From NCBI GenBank assembly GCA_027604665.1, contig JADGIZ010000410.1, positions 1-14,097 on the forward strand: 14,097 nucleotides of DNA, in the 5' to 3' direction. This DNA comes from Polyrhizophydium stewartii (taxonomy: Eukaryota; Chytridiomycota; Chytridiomycetes; Rhizophydiales). The position numbers and the translations under genes are program-made. Below are positions 1,090 through 14,097 of this stretch, in pieces; position 1 is the stretch's first letter; each line of letters begins with the position of its first letter. The notes beneath the pieces were generated by a model. The model was not told the origin of the DNA, made no database searches, and saw only the letters and a program-made list of their open reading frames with translations.

Positions 1090-1471
1090 ACACCCTTCTT
1101 GTCGCTTACGATGGCAGGCCGGTTGCAACTGCTTATTGCTGCCGCCGATATTCGTGTGTTCATTTGGTCATTCTCGATGTGCGTTTCTTCTCTCTGCAAC
1201 ATTCTCCTCCCATCCCTGATTCATTTCTGATTTCATTTTACTTTCCTTGCCGGGACGAGCTTGTCTTGGCAACTCCGGCCGCCAGATCTCGCGCTAGCCG
1301 CGCAGCACATCCCGTCACAACACAATAAACTCAGCAAAATCGGTCTGGTGCCTGCCTTGTGCGTGCTATGCTTTCCCAGCATCTCGGATCTGTCATCATA
1401 TCTTCCCCGCTGAAACCACATGCTCCTCTGTTGTGATTCAATGTTTGGTTTACATTCAGAATGATGTGGCA
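1090..1471. other. Convergent intergenic region
   Basis: This 382-base stretch lies between the stop of the doubtful plus-strand ORF and the stop of the minus-strand LRR pseudokinase gene. It is less GC-rich than its surroundings and has pyrimidine-rich runs on the plus strand. I see no convincing gene in it. A long minus-strand frame (1233-1646) overlaps it, but this frame is only the unspliced continuation of exon 33 of the LRR gene. Confidence 0.5.
1324..1329 (+). terminator. Possible polyadenylation signal AATAAA
   Basis: A canonical AATAAA hexamer lies 235 bases after the stop of the plus-strand ORF, in the convergent intergenic region. It could serve that ORF if it is a real gene. The hexamer is short and could occur by chance. 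Confidence 0.2.
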
Positions 1472-4400
1472 TCAGGCGTCCGCCTGACTTGCGCGATTGT
1501 ACGGATTGCCGCCTTCCACGCTGCACATGTCGCCGGCCAGTCAGCTTTGCTGCCTCAGCAGGCTGCAACCGACGCACCACCCACATGCGTGCGTTGTGAA
1601 GCAACTCGAGCCACAATGGCCGAGAGGTGATGCTGTTGTTGCTCACATCACTTTAAGCCCAGTGTTAGAAGAGCACTATTGAGGTTCAAGCAGGCTTGCA
1701 CGCAGTACTCTCACAGCCATTTGAGGTTTCCGAGTTCCGAAAGCGTTTCAGGCAAAATCGTGAGCTTGTTCCCGTTCAAGTATCTGCCGACGGAATCGAG
1801 TCAGATAGGGCACGATCCGCTCGAGTCGCACCCAACGAGTGCGTACAGCCAAACGAGCTGCTTGAGCCCGCCATCAAACGCTGGCAACGTTGTGAGCTGA
1901 TTGTCGCCCAGATCGCTGTTTTCGCAGCCGCGAAAGTAAGCCACCAAGGCAGCACAACTCAAAGGATTTCCGTGACTCACAGCTCCGTTAGACGTGCAAG
2001 GCGAGTAATGGACTCGGGCAGGGCCGCAAGCCTATTGTCACCAAGGCCCCTTCAGCCCGCCAAACGTCAGTATCAAAATGACAGGCCTGCATCCCTATGA
2101 CGCAAACTCACAGCTCTGACAAGCTTGCAAGGTCGCCAAGGCTTTCTGGGAGCGCTGAAAGCTGGTTCTTTCCGAGCATGCTGCGTTGATCTGTGCGTCA
2201 GCTCATTTCCAGCATCACCGATTCAAATCGCGAATACAAACAGTCGGCGGAGCTGTCCGAGCCGATTGATCGACTCTGGCAAGCTCGAGAGTTGGTTTCC
2301 AGTCAAGATTCTGCATCATGGCCGCGAATCAGCCGAAATCCAGCCACATGTCGTTCGAGGCTGACGTGCTTACAGCTTCTGCAAATTTGAGAGGCCGCCA
2401 ATCGAGTTAGGCAGACTTGAGATGCGGTTCTCTGTGAGATCCCTGAATCCGCATGCGTGTTAGATTTCCAGGCTCAGGGCGAAACGTGGAGCAAGGCAAA
2501 CATACAGCCTGATCAGATTGATAAGACACCCGATCCTCTCGGGCAAGCCCGTTAGCAGATTGCCGGTCAAGTCCCTGCAGAAGTAGATGCCATCAGCCAA
2601 GCCCAGCTGCGCGCACTACGCCGACCTCCGGGACCCACGCACAGCTCTTTTAAACTCTCAAGATCGGATATGGACTCGGGAAGCTCAACAAGGCGGTTGC
2701 CTGCCAAAGTGCTATCGCAGTACAAGTGTCAGACAACGCGAGAGCAAGTTGCCCACTAATACTTGCAACTCACATCCAGCCAAGCTGCTTGAGCTTGCCA
2801 ATTCCGTCAGGCAGGCGCTCGAGCTGGTTGGAGTTGAGCGTGCTGCATTGCGGCCAAAGTCAGATATGCCCAAACGCAAACCAAGCCGTCAATAAAATAG
2901 CTTACAGTTCGACTAGGCTCGCCAGGCTCTGAATAGATTCGGGAATCGCGATGATGGCGTTCTGGCTCAAGTCGCTGCAGCACTTTGTAAGGCAGCCGCA
3001 TCCACCAATCCACATTGAGAAGCAGCGTCAAACTTACAGCCATTTGAGGTTTACCAAGCCGCCAATGGACTCGGGAGCCGTAGTGAGCTGGTTTTGCTGC
3101 ACATTGCTGACAAACGGCAAGTTAGATGCGTCGCATCGTGGGGGTGTATGGGGGTTCGGATGCTGCTCACAGGCTGGTGAGCGCAGTAAGCTGGCCAAGG
3201 GATTCTGGGAGGCCCGTGATCTGATTTCCAACAAGGGTGCTGCAGGTGGAATCCTGTCAGTCGCATCTGTCTGGAACTATCTCGAGGCATCACGGGCTAC
3301 TTGCAGGGTTCTGAGCATGCGGAGCCCGCCAATGGCTTCAGGGCAGGTCTTCAGCTGGTTCAGCGAGAGCCGGCTGCAATAGTGCGCGAGTCAGAGGCGC
3401 TGAACATCCGTGGCAAGAACACGCATGGCTGCCTTACAGTTCTGTCAGCTGGTCGAGGCGACCAATTGTCTCTGGAAGGCTCTCGAGCTTGTTCTCCTCG
3501 AGGGAGCTGCAGTATCAGATTGCTTAGCTGTGCTGGTCTTTGCAGTAAACAATCAGGCTGACCAGCTCACATGAGCCTGAGCATCTTGAGCTGTCCCACC
3601 GACTCGGGCAGGTGTGAAAGCTGGTTGCCATCGAGCTTGCTGGATCCAAACGCAAGTCAGCTCAGTTGCAAGGCAAAGGTGCACGCAAATCGCCACCGCA
3701 CAGCTCAGTCAGTTGCTTGAGTCCCCCAATGCCGTCAGGCAGCTGAGTGAGCTGATTGAAGTTCAGGTTTCTGGGCAGATGCTCTGTTAACATGGCCATA
3801 ATACAGCACTGGCCTGAGCATCACTCAGACGTACAGTTTTCGCAACCGGACGAGCTTGCCAAAGTTCTCGGGAAGCACCCCGATCTGGTTGGCCTGCAAG
3901 TCGCTGCCTGGAGAGTCAGAAATAGCATGTGTGACACCTAAGAAAAGCGCCTCATACTCACAGCTCCATGAGATAGGCCAGCTCGCACACAGACTCTGGC
4001 AGCGTGTGCAGGGCGTTGTCGACCACAAGCCTGAGGCAAAGCACCATCAGCTCACGCCGCGGCTGAGCTGTCAGGCATCAGTAGCATACAGCTTTTCGAG
4101 AAGCACGATCTCGCCAATGCTTTCCGGAAGCTTGCTGATGCGGTTCCGAGACAGAATCCTGCACATCCCATCAGCCGAGTCCAAAGCTCTCATGACAGTA
4201 GCAATGGGCTACGCACAAAGTCGAGAGGCTCTGCAGCTTGCCAATGTCGTCGGGCAGTTCTTTCAAGCTCTGCCACGACAGATCGCTGCATACCAGCACA
4301 GAGTCAGCTGCATTCCGGCGTCACAAGCTGCGCCAAGCGTTTACACACAGAATTCGCAGGTTTTTGAGCAGCGTGATGGTAGCGGGTACCGTCTCTAAGC

Positions 4401-5070
4401 TGCACTGCGAAGCAAGTCTTGCCCGGAAGTCAGAATATTATCGCTATCGCCGCTCCATCAAGCGCCACACACAGGATCTCCAGCGACGCCAGATCGCCCA
4501 AAGACTGCGGAAGCATCTTGATATGGTTTCCAGAGACATTGCTTCGTCTTGCCGTCAGCATTCTGCTTCGAATATTCACGCAATAGGTGACACGCACAGG
4601 ATCTTGAGGTTGGCCAGGCCAGTCAGGCCTTTGGGAATCTCGACAAGACCGTTTCCTTGAACATTGCTGAACATCGCATAGTCAGAAAGCATCACAGGCA
4701 GCCCCACCGGCACCATTCTTCTCACAGCTCGACCAATTGCGTCAACCGGACCAGGTTGGCTGGGAGGGCCCCACAGAGCCTGTTTTGGCCGAGGCGGCTG
4801 CATCATGTCACAGGATGAGGCGTCATTCTTTGGGAAAGCTGCAGCACACATGCACACGCACTCACAGTGAAGTGAGATTACGCAATCTGAAGATTTCAGG
4901 TGGGATCTCGCCCTCAAGCTCGTTCTGGTCGAGCCAGCTGGCGGCGTCTGGGGTCAGCAAACCCGAGACCAATTCAAGCACCGGCTGCCTCGGCTCACAG
5001 AGTCTTCAGTTGCGTCAAGCGACCAATGTCTTGCGGGATGCTGCCAGCAATGCCGCATCCGGTCATGCGC
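1472..5070 (-). repeat. Leucine-rich repeat array, one repeat per exon
   Basis: Exons 7-34 are: 5070-4999, 4937-4866, 4797-4726, 4666-4598, 4541-4473, 4417-4349, 4285-4217, 4158-4090, 4030-3962, 3903-3835, 3770-3702, 3639-3571, 3506-3438, 3373-3305, 3239-3171, 3106-3038, 2974-2906, 2842-2774, 2711-2643, 2574-2506, 2442-2374, 2310-2242, 2180-2112, 2049-1981, 1915-1847, 1783-1715, 1650-1585, 1520-1472. Exons 7-9 are 72 nt and encode 24-residue plant-type repeats with GxIP or GxLP (for example NELEGEIPPEIFRL). The next 23 are 69 nt and encode 23-residue repeats of the form LxLxxNxLxxLPxxIxxLxxLxxL. Exon 33 is 66 nt and ends with a weaker repeat. Exon 34 gives the C-cap. Nearly every exon ends in the first two bases of a Leu codon, so all introns here are phase 2. 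Introns are 55-68 nt. Confidence 0.9.
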
Positions 5071-7670
5071 CTGGGGGAGCGACAAACGTGGTCAGTTAAA
5101 GTAACGCACGTGCAGACCCACCGCCGAGTCAACTTACAGACTAGTCAAGCAGTGGTCCGTGTCCCATTCGAGCCTCCACTTGGCTACACTGCGCTCGGTC
5201 TGGCCGTCATAGACAAAGACCAGCGCACCCGTCGGGTCGATGCTGCCTGCAGTTATGCCGCTTTCGTTGGCCCAGTCCGGGAAGGCAGAGCAGAGTAGTT
5301 CAACGTCTGATGCACCAGGCCGAGCAGTCTTGTGCTCTGCATTGACCAGTTTGCATCAGCAACCGCCAGCTTCTCAAGCACGGCGAGCCAGGTACAAACC
5401 TCCGCAGAGCAAAGCGTTGAGCTGGGAAACAATTTTGTCGAGCGGCGGGCGGTTGGGTGCGACTTTGGACGTCGCCAGGCAAAGCAGCTCCCACAACTCG
5501 GGGCTTAATCCTGGTGGGCAGGGCGTCTCCTTGTCGCGCACATCTCGTGGGTGCCGACCCAGCACCAGCGACTGCGCCAAGATTCCGAACGCGAAAACAT
5601 CGAGCCTTGCTGTCAGCTTGAAGCCAGGCTTGGATGCCTCTGGAGGCACAAATGCAGCCGAGTCGAGGTCCGTTGTGGCCTTGGAGGCTGTGCCAATAGA
5701 CGGCAACAGCACGACCTTGCTGATCTTGCGCACGTAGAGGTCTCCAACCACCTGCCCTCTTGATTCTGCTCGCGGGACACAGGACCATTAGCAGCCCAAT
5801 ACCCTCAAAGCCTGACAAGACCGAGCAGAGCAGCTCACCGACGCGCACATGGCGCATCGTCACGCTGCCATGCACAATTGGCGCGTTTGGCGCTTGCTCG
5901 TGGAGGTACTTGAGTCCGCGAGCAATGCGCTGCACGATGCTGAGCTTCTCATCCATGCCGAGATCAGGATTCTCGGTCAAGAACGACTCGAGGTCGTGCT
6001 CGACAAACGGCATTGCAATAAACGGCCCGCGGCCCGTCTGCCTGTCTTTGGCGAGGCAGATGCCCGTGAGCTGCAGCAGGCTCGGGTGGTTGGCGTTGAA
6101 CCAGCGGCGCGCCTCGGCCTCGAGATCGTCCTCGCGGCCCTCGATGCCGCCGCGGAACTCCTTGATCACAAACGGGCTGCCGTCCATCTTGGCCTCGAAC
6201 ACGCGGAACGAGCCCGACGAGTCGAGCGGCTTTGGCACGACCATGAAGTCGTCATGCCGCAGCAGCAGCGTACGCGGGCGGAGCAGCCTGCAGCAGCGGT
6301 GAGTGCACAAGTCATCGGCGCGCGACAAGCAGACGCACCCTGCGGCACAAGGCCACGCACGCAAGCATCTTGTCGGCCTTGACGTCGATGATGTTGAGCT
6401 GCTCGGCCATGCGCATCAGCATCATGGCGCTGTCGACTTGCATGGCGAGCGACAGCAGCTCCTTGATCTTGCCGAGCTTCTTGCGCAGCGCCTCGACCTG
6501 CGCGGCCATCTTGGTGCTGGCGCCGCCCATGAGCGCACGCCATGTCTTTGCATCGGCCTTGGACTTTTCTACTGCCGCATCGGCCTCCTTGAGCAGCGTG
6601 ACAAGGTCGCTGCACTTGCGCCGCACGTCGGCCGAGAACCACTGGTTGGCCATTGGCGCGATGATCGCCTTGATCTCGCCGAGGTTGGCGCAGAACGCCT
6701 GCATGATCTTGGGTGCATCGCGGCTGTCGCCGATGTTCTTGAGGATCTTGTCGATGATGCCGATGGCGATGCCAAGACCCGGCACGGGCACAAAGTCGGC
6801 GGCGACCTTGGCGACATTGACAATGGTCGAGGCGATCTCGAGGCCGTTGGTGGCAAGGAAGCGGGTGACGGCCTTGATGCCCTTGGCGCTTGGGTCGCGC
6901 GGGCGGTTGAGCAGCTGCACAAACTCGACGAGTGATCCAGCAGCACCAAGCATGTCGGAAAGCTCGTCGATGTTGGGCAACGATACGCCCGGATCAACTT
7001 GCTTGGAGAGCATGTCGAGCACAACGACCACCCCGGCCTTGTTCTGCATAAGCGGGGGCCGTGTCAGCGCTCGACGGGCTGTGCGTTGCGAGCCGGCACG
7101 GGTGCCGCACCTCCGAGACGGCGCCGAGGGCGGCCTTGGTGGCTGCAAACGCCTTCTCCAGGGACGGGTCGGCGTTGGGCGCTGGCGGGCCGTCTTGGGC
7201 GTCACCGTGAGCAGAGGTTGCTGCCTCTGCGGCCGCACGGCTGTCCACGATGCGGCCGCGCAGATCAAAGAACGAGTCGCCGACGTCGTCCATGACTCTC
7301 TCGACGTCCTCTTCGGACATGGCGGAGCGGCCGCGCACCACGGCCGCGGCGCTTTCAAGCAGCGCGAGCAGCTCGTCGCGGTGCTGGCGCAGCATGTCAG
7401 CGCGCGGCCGAGAGATGCACCATGGGCATGGTGCAGCATGTCATGGCGGGCTTGGCGCACGTTGCTGGGAGCTGTTGCCTGCGAGAGCACCGCCGTCGCC
7501 TCTGGTGCCGTGGCGACCGACCCGCGAGGGCTGGCCTCGGGCGGGATGCCGTCGTCCCTGCCGGCGCTGCGGCCAAACAGCTTGAAGACGCCGCCGCGTT
7601 TGGGCTGGTGCTTGGCGGGCGGGGACCTGGCTGCGTCTGGCTGCTCCGCTGCTCCGTGGCTGTCGCTCAT
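1472..7670 (-). CDS. MLKL-like helical domain, TKL pseudokinase and LRR protein (34 exons)
   Basis: I reconstructed this gene by following reading frame, splice signals and repeat register. Exons 1-6 are 7670-7461, 7383-7111, 7043-6361, 6287-5839, 5765-5400 and 5336-5138; exons 7-34 are listed under the LRR array. The spliced length is 4,098 nt (1,365 residues plus TGA), divisible by three with no internal stop. The start ATG has a GCCGCC-ATG context. Order: disordered N-terminus (1-70), helical region (71-389) with an MLKL/HeLo-like bundle at about 225-365, TKL-type pseudokinase (about 400-657), Trp/Cys-containing LRR N-cap (about 667-727), and 27 LRRs to residue 1350 with a short cap holding GGNPY. 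There is no signal peptide or membrane span, so a cytoplasmic location is likely. Proposed role (inference): the LRRs sense a ligand, the pseudokinase acts as a switch, and the helical bundle is a membrane-acting or signalling effector. The intron 4 boundary has an alternative: donor GTGCGC at 5847 with acceptor before GTG at 5750, also in frame. Confidence 0.8.
3240..3304 (-). other. GC-AG intron (intron 20)
   Basis: The donor after exon 20 reads CCT|GCAAGT instead of GT, and the acceptor is ACCTGCAG. A GACTGACAGG branch-like site lies upstream of the acceptor. The flanking exons are both in perfect 69-nt LRR register, so the boundary is well fixed. GC donors with otherwise strong consensus are a known minor class of U2 introns. 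Confidence 0.8.
5410..6256 (-). other. TKL-type pseudokinase domain (residues about 400-657)
   Basis: This domain spans exon 4 and exon 5. The glycine loop is degenerate (DSSGSFRVF). The beta-3 lysine is present (FVIKEF, K431), a possible alpha-C glutamate is at about 447, and NHPSLLQLTGI follows as in TKL kinases. The catalytic loop reads IVHGSVTMRH, so the HRD aspartate is Ser530, the catalytic-loop lysine is Thr532 and the metal-binding Asn is His535. DFG is replaced by a K-I-S-K-V segment (552-556). The PPE (579-581) and alpha-F Asp (DVFAFG, D594) that hold the fold are kept. Phosphotransfer is therefore very unlikely. Retention of VAIK with loss of HRD and DFG is also seen in MLKL. Confidence 0.8.
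6432..6854 (-). other. Helical module resembling the MLKL/HeLo four-helix bundle
   Basis: Residues about 225-365, in exon 3, form several amphipathic helices. The most telling stretch is FVPVPGLGIAIGIIDKIL, a hydrophobic Pro-Gly segment of the kind found in N-terminal bundles of fungal and plant HeLo/MLKL-type proteins. It is followed by long Lys/Glu/Ala-rich helices with heptad-like spacing (for example MAAQVEALRKKLGKIKELL). The placement directly before a pseudokinase also matches MLKL. This assignment is by pattern only; a generic helical adaptor domain is the main alternative. Confidence 0.5.
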
Positions 7671-8142: not shown

Positions 8143-11619
<3,477 letters not shown>

Positions 11620-11874: not shown

Positions 11875-13914
11875 CTACTGCTGTTGTTGCTGTTGCTGCG
11901 GCTGCTGCTTTTGCGCCTCCAATGGCTCCGGTTCTTGTGGCTCTGCAAACTCTGCTGGAAAATCAGAGTCCTGGTGCATCATGCGCATCCGTGCGAGGAT
12001 CCCGGGGGCCTCGAACTCGCCTTGATCGTTGATGGAGATTGGCTGAGACGTTGTGGAGCGGTTTGATCCCACGGTCTGAGGAGCCGAGCGCCACGAGGTT
12101 GTCGAGTGTCCATGCGCCATTTGCGGCGGCTCCGAAGTGAACGAGCCCGACGACAGTCCCGATATGACCGACGCGGTCACATGCACCGATGCTCCCGAGC
12201 GTCCACGGGCGTCGGACTTGACAAAGGACCACGCAGACTCGTTGTTGGTCTCGGTCGACATTGGGCGGCGGGTAATTGTCTCTGCGGGGCTCTGGCCAAT
12301 GGCGCTGGTGCTGCTGTGTCGGTGACTGTCCTGGACGAGCAGCGTCACTCTCGTGGGAGCAGGCTCTTCGCCATGCCTTGGGAGGCTTGCCGTGTGGTCC
12401 GAGCGCACGATTGTGCTTGGGCCAAGTGATGTGACTGAGAGCGGCGCCGACTCGTCGGTGACGGTCGGCTGGTCAGGCGTCGGCAGCTGCACGGCCTCGA
12501 TGTCCGGGTTGTCCGGCAACAAGCGGGACTCGCGGATGCGTGCAGTGGAGACGTGCGGCGCGTCGATCTTGCTATGCAGCGACCGCCCCGAGTCGCCGGA
12601 CTTGGACGAAAGCATCGAGCCCCTGACGGAGTGGGCAGCCGAGGGCGTGGCGGCTACTGGAGCAATTGGTGGCTCAACGACTGCCGCGAGGCCGACACGC
12701 GAGGTGCCGGCTGCTATGTCCGAAGCGTCAGTTCCTCGAGCTGGCGCCGCATCAATGGAGAGCAACTCACTGCGGTCGCCGGCCAGCACAAAGACTCGCG
12801 AGCGCACGGCCTGCGCGGCTTCGTCGTAGCTCCAGCTGATGCGGCTGAGCACATTGCCGCTCGCAACACTGGGCAGCGTCGGCACCGCGCTCGGCGTGGC
12901 GTACGGGCCGTTGGGCAGCGGATATCCTTCTTGCGCGAGCGTCGAGGTCTGCGAGACGGACGCATCTGAGCCCGCGACGCGCGGCAGCGTGCCGGTGCTG
13001 CCGTTGAGCAGATGCGACGCAGTGCCTGACGGCCGACGCGACGCCAGGGCCGCGCGCAGACTCCCAGTCGATATGCGGCGGTCGCCGGCCATGGCCATCT
13101 CCTGGGTCAAGCCATACTGCGCAGCAAGGCGGCGCTCGATGGCAGCGCTCTGCTCTGCGATGCGGGCCATCTCGCTGGCTCTGCGCTCAGCGGGGGAGTT
13201 TGGCACTGGCTGAAGCACACCGAACCGGAACGGCAGGTTCAGGGCGGCTGCTTCGTCCCGCTTGGTCTTGAGCCGCCACCAGCACAGGCAAATGACGATC
13301 GCGACGACGATCAGCAGCGCGCCAATGATGATAAACACGAGAGCAGCCGTTGTCAGCGAGGACGCACGGCCTGGGTCCGCGCTGGCGGTCGGGGCGGCGG
13401 TTGCGGCCGACAGCACCGAAGATGATGCGCGCGCAGTGGTGGTGGCCGCTGCCGATGCACCGCAGGTGGGCGATGCGGTGCACAGCGTCGCGGCGCTCGC
13501 TGATCCCGGCGGCGTGACGGCGACGGCCGACGGCCCGCCGGCGACATCGCGCGTGACAATGTCGAAGACGCCCGCGAACACGGCGGCGTCGCCGACGTAG
13601 CACACAATGGAGGCGTTGGCGGCGCTGTACTGGGGCGTGTCGCAGAAGATGCTGCCGACCGAAGACGAGGTCTCCTGCGGCAGCAGGTAAGTCATCGGGA
13701 AGTACAGCGCCACGGCGGTGCCTGGCGTGCGGGCGGCCAGATCCGGCGCGGCGACTGTGACGTTGAGCGAGAACTGCGCGGCAGTTGCGTCCGTGGCGAC
13801 CACGGCGCTGGAGAAGCAGCATGCAGATGCGGACGCTGCGCGAGACGGGGCCGTCAGCTCGGGCATCGCACCGCATCGCGTCGCGGCGTCGCGTGCGGGC
13901 GGCATCGCACCCAT
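11875..13914 (-). CDS. Single-pass membrane protein with Ser/Thr-rich tail, unknown family
   Basis: The start chosen is the first in-frame ATG (13914), giving 679 residues; the frame is open further upstream only from a GTG at 13956. A strong membrane segment (about 191-213, LVFIIIGALLIVVAIVICLC) is followed by WWRLKTKRDE, the positive stop-transfer side. The N-terminal part of about 190 residues has two N-glycosylation sequons (NVT, NAS) and four cysteines (91, 105, 145, 151), so it is probably extracellular. The tail of about 465 residues is Ser/Thr/Pro-rich, likely cytoplasmic and disordered, and ends in seven glutamines. No clear signal peptide is seen; a later ATG (13866) gives a weakly hydrophobic start, and an intron ending at CGCGCAG just downstream is possible, so the 5' end is uncertain. 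The layout resembles fungal cell-surface sensors, but I recognise no named family. Confidence 0.65.
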   Translation of the reverse strand: MGAMPPARDAATRCGAMPELTAPSRAASASACCFSSAVVATDATAAQFSLNVTVAAPDLAARTPGTAVALYFPMTYLLPQETSSSVGSIFCDTPQYSAANASIVCYVGDAAVFAGVFDIVTRDVAGGPSAVAVTPPGSASAATLCTASPTCGASAAATTTARASSSVLSAATAAPTASADPGRASSLTTAALVFIIIGALLIVVAIVICLCWWRLKTKRDEAAALNLPFRFGVLQPVPNSPAERRASEMARIAEQSAAIERRLAAQYGLTQEMAMAGDRRISTGSLRAALASRRPSGTASHLLNGSTGTLPRVAGSDASVSQTSTLAQEGYPLPNGPYATPSAVPTLPSVASGNVLSRISWSYDEAAQAVRSRVFVLAGDRSELLSIDAAPARGTDASDIAAGTSRVGLAAVVEPPIAPVAATPSAAHSVRGSMLSSKSGDSGRSLHSKIDAPHVSTARIRESRLLPDNPDIEAVQLPTPDQPTVTDESAPLSVTSLGPSTIVRSDHTASLPRHGEEPAPTRVTLLVQDSHRHSSTSAIGQSPAETITRRPMSTETNNESAWSFVKSDARGRSGASVHVTASVISGLSSGSFTSEPPQMAHGHSTTSWRSAPQTVGSNRSTTSQPISINDQGEFEAPGILARMRMMHQDSDFPAEFAEPQEPEPLEAQKQQPQQQQQQQ
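11878..11898 (-). repeat. C-terminal poly-Gln tract
   Basis: Seven CAG/CAA codons form the extreme C-terminus of the membrane protein, just before two TAG stops. A wider CTG/CAG-rich stretch (about 11815-11912, read on the plus strand as CTG, TTG and CTT triplets) covers both the coding end and the sequence after the stop. Confidence 0.85.
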
Positions 13915-13963
13915 TGCGGAGCGGCGGCCGCGGCGGCGGCGCGGGTTTGCCCTCACGACCGGA

Positions 13964-14097
13964 TATGGCGACCGTCACCACGCGCAACGGCCGCGTCCTG
14001 ATCGAGTCGCTCGAGCTCGACAGCGCGACCGCCACGGTCGACGACATCTGCGCCGCAATCGTCAAGGCCGGTGCGGCCCCGCGCCCCGCCCGCCGCC
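13964..14097 (+). CDS. Probable very-long-chain enoyl-CoA reductase, N-terminal fragment
   Basis: The frame is open from ATG at 13964 to the window end, so only 44 codons are visible. It begins ATVTTRNGRVLIESLELD and continues ATVDDICAAIVKAG, a ubiquitin-like fold pattern (beta hairpin then helix). This matches the typical N-terminus of Tsc13/TECR proteins, which carry a ubiquitin-like domain before a membrane-bound steroid-reductase domain and catalyse the last step of very-long-chain fatty acid elongation in the ER. The catalytic part is outside the window, so another ubiquitin-like protein remains possible. It lies head-to-head with the membrane protein gene, with 49 bases between the start codons. 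Confidence 0.45.

Follow-up and report, generated by a model that had tools for sequence, protein, structure and literature searches.

A putative MLKL-like helical domain, a pseudokinase and a leucine-rich repeat array joined in one predicted chytrid protein

Can a sensor, a switch and an effector of the MLKL kind be carried by a single protein chain in an early-diverging fungus? The question is raised by a gene of the chytrid Polyrhizophydium stewartii (Chytridiomycota, Rhizophydiales), found in positions 1 to 14,097 of contig JADGIZ010000410.1 (assembly GCA_027604665.1), which are referred to here as the window. A preliminary description of this DNA had read the gene as a HeLo/MLKL-like helical bundle, a tyrosine kinase-like (TKL) pseudokinase and about 27 leucine-rich repeats (LRRs) in one protein of an early-diverging fungus, and its taxonomy bears out the last point. 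In our analysis, a predicted helical domain, a kinase domain and LRRs follow each other in that order, catalytic residues of the kinase have been lost, a pair of hydrophobic helices is conserved and the LRR arrays vary between members of the family. Judged on sequence, the chances appear about even that the gene encodes an intracellular single-chain receptor with an LRR sensor, a pseudokinase switch and an MLKL-like effector.

The gene lies on the minus strand and runs from an ATG at 7670 to a stop at 1233, giving 1,466 codons with the frame intact in 33 exons, separated by 32 introns of 55-77 nt. The exons were joined by canonical splice borders and reading frame; 31 introns have GT-AG borders and one, after exon 20, has GC-AG, and a G is present at donor position +5 in 32/32. 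The intact frame agrees with the preliminary description, but its count of 34 exons and 1,365 residues, ending at 1472, was not reproduced, and as far as can be told the mismatch sits in the C-terminal tail. The public annotation P0001 (HK105_207669, Polyrhizophydium stewartii) starts at the same ATG, reaches the LRRs and is 100% identical over residues 160-740; it joins bundle, kinase and LRRs as an annotation and not as RNA evidence. Both P0001 and a second public model, P0002, omit LRR exons, different ones in each.

The array in the window consists of 26 LRRs, each filling one phase-2 exon (3 of 72 nt and 23 of 69 nt), followed by an imperfect 27th that opens the last exon, so the earlier figure of about 27 holds as 26 whole repeats and a partial one. 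A fixed pattern found 26 LRR exons between 1651 and 5100, whereas in 500 dinucleotide-shuffled sequences it found 0.014 on average and never more than 1. Pfam LRR_8 matched the window protein at E 1.2e-72. In an 868-residue structure model the LRRs have predicted local distance difference test scores (pLDDT) mostly >85 and, by structure search, resemble SHOC2, LRRC8 and plant receptor ectodomains; the matches of the VIA structure search with this model were filled by LRR proteins. The N-cap region, from about residue 600 in the P0002 model, aligned in the structure search with the N-terminal portions of LRR receptor ectodomains from plants.

The same order of bundle, pseudokinase and LRRs is present at eight other loci in the genome and in proteins of Entophlyctis helioformis (Chytridiales in the NCBI taxonomy), which are paralogues and relatives of the layout that had been envisaged. 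With C-numbers standing for contig labels in the P. stewartii genome, the helical domain was located at the window, C135, C161, C253, C57, C660, C512, C114, C218 (two copies, one partial) and C474, and phased LRR exons at all of these except C474, making nine loci. The LRR-less C474 protein (P0020, HK105_203849) ends after the kinase domain, in which HGD is kept and NFN stands in place of DFG; its profile homology to the helical domain (98.7%, E 1.9e-16) begins at its residue 9. P0005 and P0007 are further P. stewartii family proteins that were not placed on a contig. A search of 5.8 billion proteins with the family gave 18 proteins at E≤1e-3 among 7,988 scored, and the helical region alone gave 16 at E≤1 among 7,038, adding P0021, a partial E. 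helioformis kinase protein; the N-terminus of C474 matched one protein, its own record P0020. Among these 5.8 billion proteins the family was found in no species besides P. stewartii and E. helioformis, in a search that needs shared five-residue words and limits length, and by which distant relatives could be missed. No Batrachochytrium protein was among the matches of the family protein searches; P. stewartii is closely related to Batrachochytrium according to a title in the reference list of PMC11797018.

Pfam PK_Tyr_Ser-Thr matches residues 425-653 at E 1.4e-13, and the best solved sequence relatives are IRAK1 (4.5e-12), SymRK and BAK1, followed by MLKL (from 1.2e-8), which makes the kinase TKL-type. 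MLKL chains fill 9 of the best 20 structure rows for the pseudokinase, several of them being variants of one protein, and NCBIfam gave only kinase families for the window protein, far below their cut-offs. The VAIK lysine (K431) is present, HGS stands for HRD and there is no DFG. In an alignment of the window model with 18 proteins, including duplicate annotations of one locus, the VAIK Lys is found in 19/19 rows, the HRD Asp is absent from 18/18 rows with letters there and DFG is missing from 19/19; at the genome loci, HG(S/R/C) was read at the HRD place in 8 of the 9 LRR loci, C57 not being read by the pattern. The TKL-type pseudokinase proposed earlier is therefore upheld by the Pfam match, the relatives and the family-wide loss of catalytic residues. 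When the window was compared with five paralogues, synonymous divergence (dS) in exon 4 (5841-6285) was 0.08-0.39, compared with 0.38-0.73 in exon 3 and 0.96-1.28 in exon 5. The ratio of non-synonymous divergence (dN) to dS in exon 4 (0.68-1.69) is high because dS there is low; gene conversion or constraint are possible causes of the low dS, and no selection is claimed.

The helical domain is likely to be an MLKL-type bundle, as suggested by profile matches and modelling. Pfam MLKL_N matches residues 293-376 of the window protein at E 7.5e-4 when 1,364 residues are scanned and at 1.5e-4 with the N-terminal 401 residues, and exon 3 alone scores 23.3 bits (E 5e-5), with MLKL_N as the only Pfam family at E≤1. 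More members match it than any other Pfam family: 6 of 11 domain sequences do so at E≤1, with 3.3e-5 as the best value, and the next families match at most 3 of the 11 at E 0.003 or worse. When five complete family proteins were scanned, P0004, P0012 and P0016 matched it at E 0.0013-0.045. An MLKL_N search of the 12.9-Mb genome returned seven matches at E≤1, namely C623, five family members and C123. The order of bundle then pseudokinase equals that of MLKL. With the 868-residue model, the first kinase match in Foldseek was full-length MLKL (4btf, E 2.2e-8) at rank 33, behind LRR proteins; the alignment spans 453 columns, beyond the kinase alone, compared with 288 for the next kinase shown, and its TM-scores of 0.17 and 0.33 and root mean square deviation of 23 mean that the overall fit is not reliable.

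Several results, however, weigh against this assignment and the receptor that would be built on it. All MLKL_N scores of the family are below the curated cut-off (27), 5 of the 11 domain sequences have no match at E≤1, and neither P0007 and P0009, scanned whole, nor C474 (at E≤1) gave one. A model of the bundle alone, made with 11 sequences, has a mean pLDDT of 52 (block means of about 31-69 in context), and domain-only searches with VIA and Foldseek brought up vinculin tail, FAT, alpha-catenin, sensor domains and designed bundles, with no MLKL among the best 50 matches of each and no Foldseek match at E≤0.001; structure prediction of the bundle region has thus given a poor model with generic helical bundles as neighbours. 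Against PDB sequences, the bundle gave chance-like matches only, both as a single sequence and as a profile, and the domain profile found no MLKL or HeLo chain at E≤10. Profile comparison with the helical domains of the type found on C623 (see below) showed no relation (probability 0.9%), and C623 therefore enters the argument only through its place beside the family in the genome-wide MLKL_N ranking. The closest kinase relative by sequence is IRAK1 and not MLKL. HeLo and HELL had no Pfam match in the window protein (E≤5) or among the families listed for the 11 domain sequences (E≤1), HMMER dropping most matches above about 0.1. Of the HeLo/MLKL-like bundle in the preliminary description, the MLKL part is therefore kept on the MLKL_N match at 293-376 and the 4btf match, with sub-threshold scores and a low-confidence model, and the HeLo/HELL part is not supported by the profile comparison. 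NB-ARC, NACHT and ROC gave no Pfam match in the window protein, in keeping with the earlier statement that it carries no nucleotide-binding site domain.

To compare conservation, four proteins of P. stewartii were paired with five of E. helioformis, chosen from the window model and the 18 others (20 species pairs). Mean identity across species is 67% for residues 216-262, 48% for 263-388, 28% for 161-215 and 24% for 71-160, and it is 51% from the kinase N-lobe to the catalytic loop, 27% in the C-lobe and 38% in the N-cap. Residues 216-262 are two predicted helices around a PVPG turn and have the highest hydropathy of the protein (Kyte-Doolittle 1.64, 19 residues), no stretch of the window protein being clearly transmembrane by this measure; P0009 and P0013 reach 1.92 at the same place. 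In C474 this helix-pair stretch is at the extreme N-terminus, where it is placed like helix 1 of MLKL and HeLo proteins, which have a membrane-active helix at the N-terminus (PMC10197012, PMC12881547). The candidate killer helix of the window protein does not lie at the N-terminus but is preceded by about 215 residues of low conservation, and this has to be added to the points against the receptor.

Related proteins with active kinases are also encoded in the genome. In models with exons joined by eye, the proteins of C310 and C575 have the order of the window gene: a helical domain of the C623 type comes first, then a kinase in which HGDLKxxN and DFG are present, then a segment resembling the N-cap, and finally LRRs. 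The MLKL_N match of C575 is weak (E 0.019) and covers almost the full profile, and C310 has no match at E≤1. C623 itself scores over the MLKL_N cut-off, and its contig also carries active TKL kinases. A genome search with the C623-type domain gave 21 matches at E≤10, of which several lie close to kinase matches of PF07714, and 3 of 7 such domains match MLKL_N at E≤1; the best matches of the profile of these domains are designed bundles, which is probably a composition effect. PF07714 itself has 143 matches in the genome; these were counted exon by exon and include some outside the TKL group. Several TKL kinase matches per contig, together with C623-type MLKL_N-like domains, were observed on C623, C418, C311, C562, C518 and C649. 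RIPK3 is the upstream kinase of MLKL, and it could be speculated that the live-kinase and dead-kinase forms, side by side in one genome, recall RIPK3 and MLKL, with C310 and C575 as possible upstream kinases.

These observations could also be explained by an LRR pseudokinase scaffold, in which the helical domain oligomerises or docks partners in an IRAK/Pelle- or SHOC2-like complex for zoospore or thallus signalling, with no killing. The position of IRAK1 as best kinase sequence relative, the SHOC2-like LRRs with their 23-residue repeats, the helical domain having no secure killer-bundle match and the existence of active-kinase relatives of the same layout would all suit a scaffold, but of the stretches compared none is better conserved than the helix pair, which is also transmembrane-like in hydropathy, and more members match MLKL_N than any other family. 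We regard the scaffold as possible, though rather unlikely.

Because every repeat occupies a single symmetrical exon of phase 2, LRRs can be gained, lost or skipped without a frame break, and the presumed sensor could therefore change fast with the effector half constant. The differing choice of LRR exons in P0001 and P0002 shows that skipping keeps the frame, not that skipping occurs. The pattern counted 26 LRR exons in the window, 18 in C135, 54 in C161 (42 + 12 in the tail stretch), 6 in C253, 23 in C57, 16 in C660, 8 in C512, 11 in C114 and 18 in C218; these counts are lower bounds, partly limited by the stretch covered, and one match outside the array was dropped each for the window, C512 and C114. 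The arrays open with three 72-nt LRR exons in the window, C135, C161, C253, C57, C660 and C218 and with two in C114, and none were found by pattern in C512.

Two loci show how the arrays have changed. The C161 array contains successive copies of a 9-exon block, each about 1.24 kb long and 87-90% identical to one another (exons 23-31, 32-40 and onward), which is a tandem exon-block duplication. Between exons 24-33 and 33-42, dS is 0.17, dN 0.07 and intron divergence 0.18; the resulting dN/dS of 0.42 is not >1, which is a further point against the receptor. Of 31 replaced codons between the block copies, 11 are on repeat positions 23, 2, 4 and 5, where about 5.4 would be expected if they were spread evenly. 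In 63 distinct 24-residue repeats of E. helioformis, a hypervariable-surface search ranked the concave positions 1, 3, 4 and 6 among the 13 non-scaffold positions, and no excess variation on concave positions was found in the P. stewartii repeats or in the E. helioformis 23-residue repeats. At the second locus, C253 and C135 share 92% identity over 2,978 bases that run from the 5' part to the end of LRR 6. Beyond this point they differ: in C253 some 1 kb of dissimilar sequence follows, then a further LRR exon and the last exon. The identity between C135 and C253 is a mosaic, reaching 94-100% in a stretch of about 1.2 kb that extends from the kinase C-lobe to the first LRRs, and 73-98% upstream.

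Array variation of this kind could also arise if the gene belonged to an expanded set of chytrid kinases and served in development or stress, and if LRR number drifted neutrally by unequal crossing-over of the phase-2 exons. The numbers of PF07714 and C623-type domain matches in the genome are consistent with an expansion, and the dN/dS of the C161 block, the interrupted C253 array and the lack of excess concave variation in the P. stewartii repeats and the E. helioformis 23-residue repeats with drift. We nevertheless consider this explanation improbable, as the effector half is conserved over two species while the arrays vary, the C161 replacements favour concave strand positions and the concave positions rank high in the E. 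helioformis 24-residue repeats. A gene-model artefact fusing a kinase gene to an LRR gene is hardly credible and was rejected, because, although the joins are known from genome sequence and annotation alone, frame and phase are continuous over 32 introns, the public model P0001 has the same joins and the order recurs at the eight other loci and in the E. helioformis proteins, so that the single chain of the preliminary description stands.

In the receptor that we favour, the LRR array would bind a ligand, which could be a microbial, viral, non-self or modified self protein. Binding would change the pseudokinase, which would act like that of MLKL as a switch and not as an enzyme, and this change would free the helical domain. 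The hydrophobic helix pair (216-262) could then oligomerise on membranes or insert in them, resulting in killing or signalling. An immune or allorecognition role, as suggested in the preliminary description, is plausible. The full proposal, for which the chances are below even and which is put forward tentatively, is a chytrid immune receptor class outside the NLRs, with LRR sensor, pseudokinase and MLKL-type membrane killer in one chain, an exon-per-repeat array that can be rebuilt and active-kinase sisters as possible activators. If this is true, an MLKL-like executioner and its sensor would be seen still fused, and the LRR-pseudokinase-MLKL_N-like family would be a fungal answer of its own to the problem of linking sensor, switch and effector. 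The question is testable with one construct, by asking whether the helical domain kills and whether the LRR-pseudokinase part restrains it.

Table 1. Positions of the features of the LRR-pseudokinase gene in the window
Feature	Position	Strand	Remarks
Exon 1, residues 1-70	7461..7670	-	Low-complexity N-terminus, no hydrophobic signal-like stretch; six top 19-residue hydropathy windows elsewhere
Exon 2, residues 71-161	7111..7383	-	Poorly conserved helical extension
Exon 3, residues 162 to ~389	6361..7043	-	Putative MLKL_N-like helical domain
Residues 216-262, helix - PVPG - helix	6741..6881	-	Most conserved stretch compared, most hydrophobic of protein
Pfam MLKL_N match (profile 45-126 of 142)	6399..6653	-	23.5 bits, below cut-off 27
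Exon 4, pseudokinase N-lobe to catalytic loop	5839..6287	-	VAIK Lys 431 present, HRD replaced by HGS (residues 528-530)
Exon 5, pseudokinase C-lobe	5400..5765	-	No DFG
Exon 6, LRR N-cap segment	5138..5336	-	P0002 model structure search
Exons 7-9, three LRRs, 72 nt each, phase 2	4726..5070	-	Two GxIPxxI type, one near it
Exons 10-32, 23 LRRs, 69 nt each, phase 2	1715..4666	-	Mostly LPxxIG type
Exon 33, start of 27th LRR and C-terminal tail	1233..1650	-	End at 1233, or ~1472 with a further intron

Three other reading frames lie in the window. The upstream neighbour (8143-11619, + strand), divergent to the window gene, encodes a protein kinase with HRDLKP and DFG and has several introns; it carries a C-terminal KA1 domain (E 2.8e-18) in a model partly joined by eye, and we take it to be SNF1/MARK-like. 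On the minus strand, 11878-13974 is a 699-codon open frame with no Pfam match at E≤0.01; on visual inspection it contains a strongly hydrophobic segment, as a membrane protein might. At the contig start, 1-1086 (+ strand) is an open frame that is low-complexity by eye and has no Pfam match at E≤0.01.

Of the closest known systems, MLKL of animals and plants likewise has a helical N-terminal domain followed by a TKL pseudokinase, is among the best solved relatives of the window kinase and was the first kinase match of the model. The window protein differs in its long N-terminal extension, its sub-threshold bundle and its C-terminal LRR array; MLKL ends after the pseudokinase, whereas the window protein continues with LRRs and only C474 ends likewise. 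In a survey of early-diverging fungi, MLKL-family homologues were reported only in Glomeromycotina, with Sel1 repeats (PMC8778642). Fungal HeLo and HELL proteins also have a helical effector domain, some HELL domains being joined to a kinase or pseudokinase (PMC12881547), but the window protein has no profile match to them and the available part of that source describes no version with LRRs. Plant, animal and fungal NLRs share the order of effector, switch and repeat sensor in one chain; the window protein differs from them by having a pseudokinase as its switch and no NB-ARC/NACHT match, and fungal NLRs carry WD40, tetratricopeptide (TPR) or ankyrin repeats instead of LRRs (PMC9815663, PMC10197012).

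LRR receptor-like kinases have a signal peptide, an extracellular LRR region and a transmembrane helix before the kinase, whereas in the window protein the kinase precedes the LRRs, and hydropathy showed no signal-like N-terminal stretch and none that is clearly transmembrane, its peak of 1.64 lying inside the helical domain, no dedicated signal-peptide program being used. In a 2010 survey covering 49 fungal genomes, LRR receptors were reported to be almost entirely absent (PMC2939053). The same source describes genes with LRRs plus a protein kinase in Batrachochytrium dendrobatidis and some ascomycetes, the chytrid ones with no predicted transmembrane region; these four chytrid genes are likened to the window gene by description, as possible relatives. 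Uniform LRR exon arrays with phase-2 introns are also found in Tetrahymena, but there the exons are 90 bp and the organism is a ciliate (PMC6564038). The combination of bundle, pseudokinase and LRRs was not found described in the accessible parts of the literature searched, which was mainly open-access and without bioRxiv preprints. We do not place the family of the window gene in the MLKL, HeLo, NLR, receptor-like kinase or ROCO families; its pieces are known and their combination appears to be new. The ROCO proteins (LRR-ROC-COR) of brown algae, which are candidate immune receptors, likewise have one LRR per phase-2 exon in tandem arrays, with exons of 72 bp and exon shuffling (PMC11378527). 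The window gene differs in its 69-nt exons, except for three, and in having a pseudokinase and a helical domain with no ROC-COR match, and its phased LRR exons, together with the 9-exon duplications in one paralogue, would give fungi a counterpart of the exon-shuffled LRR receptors known from brown algae.

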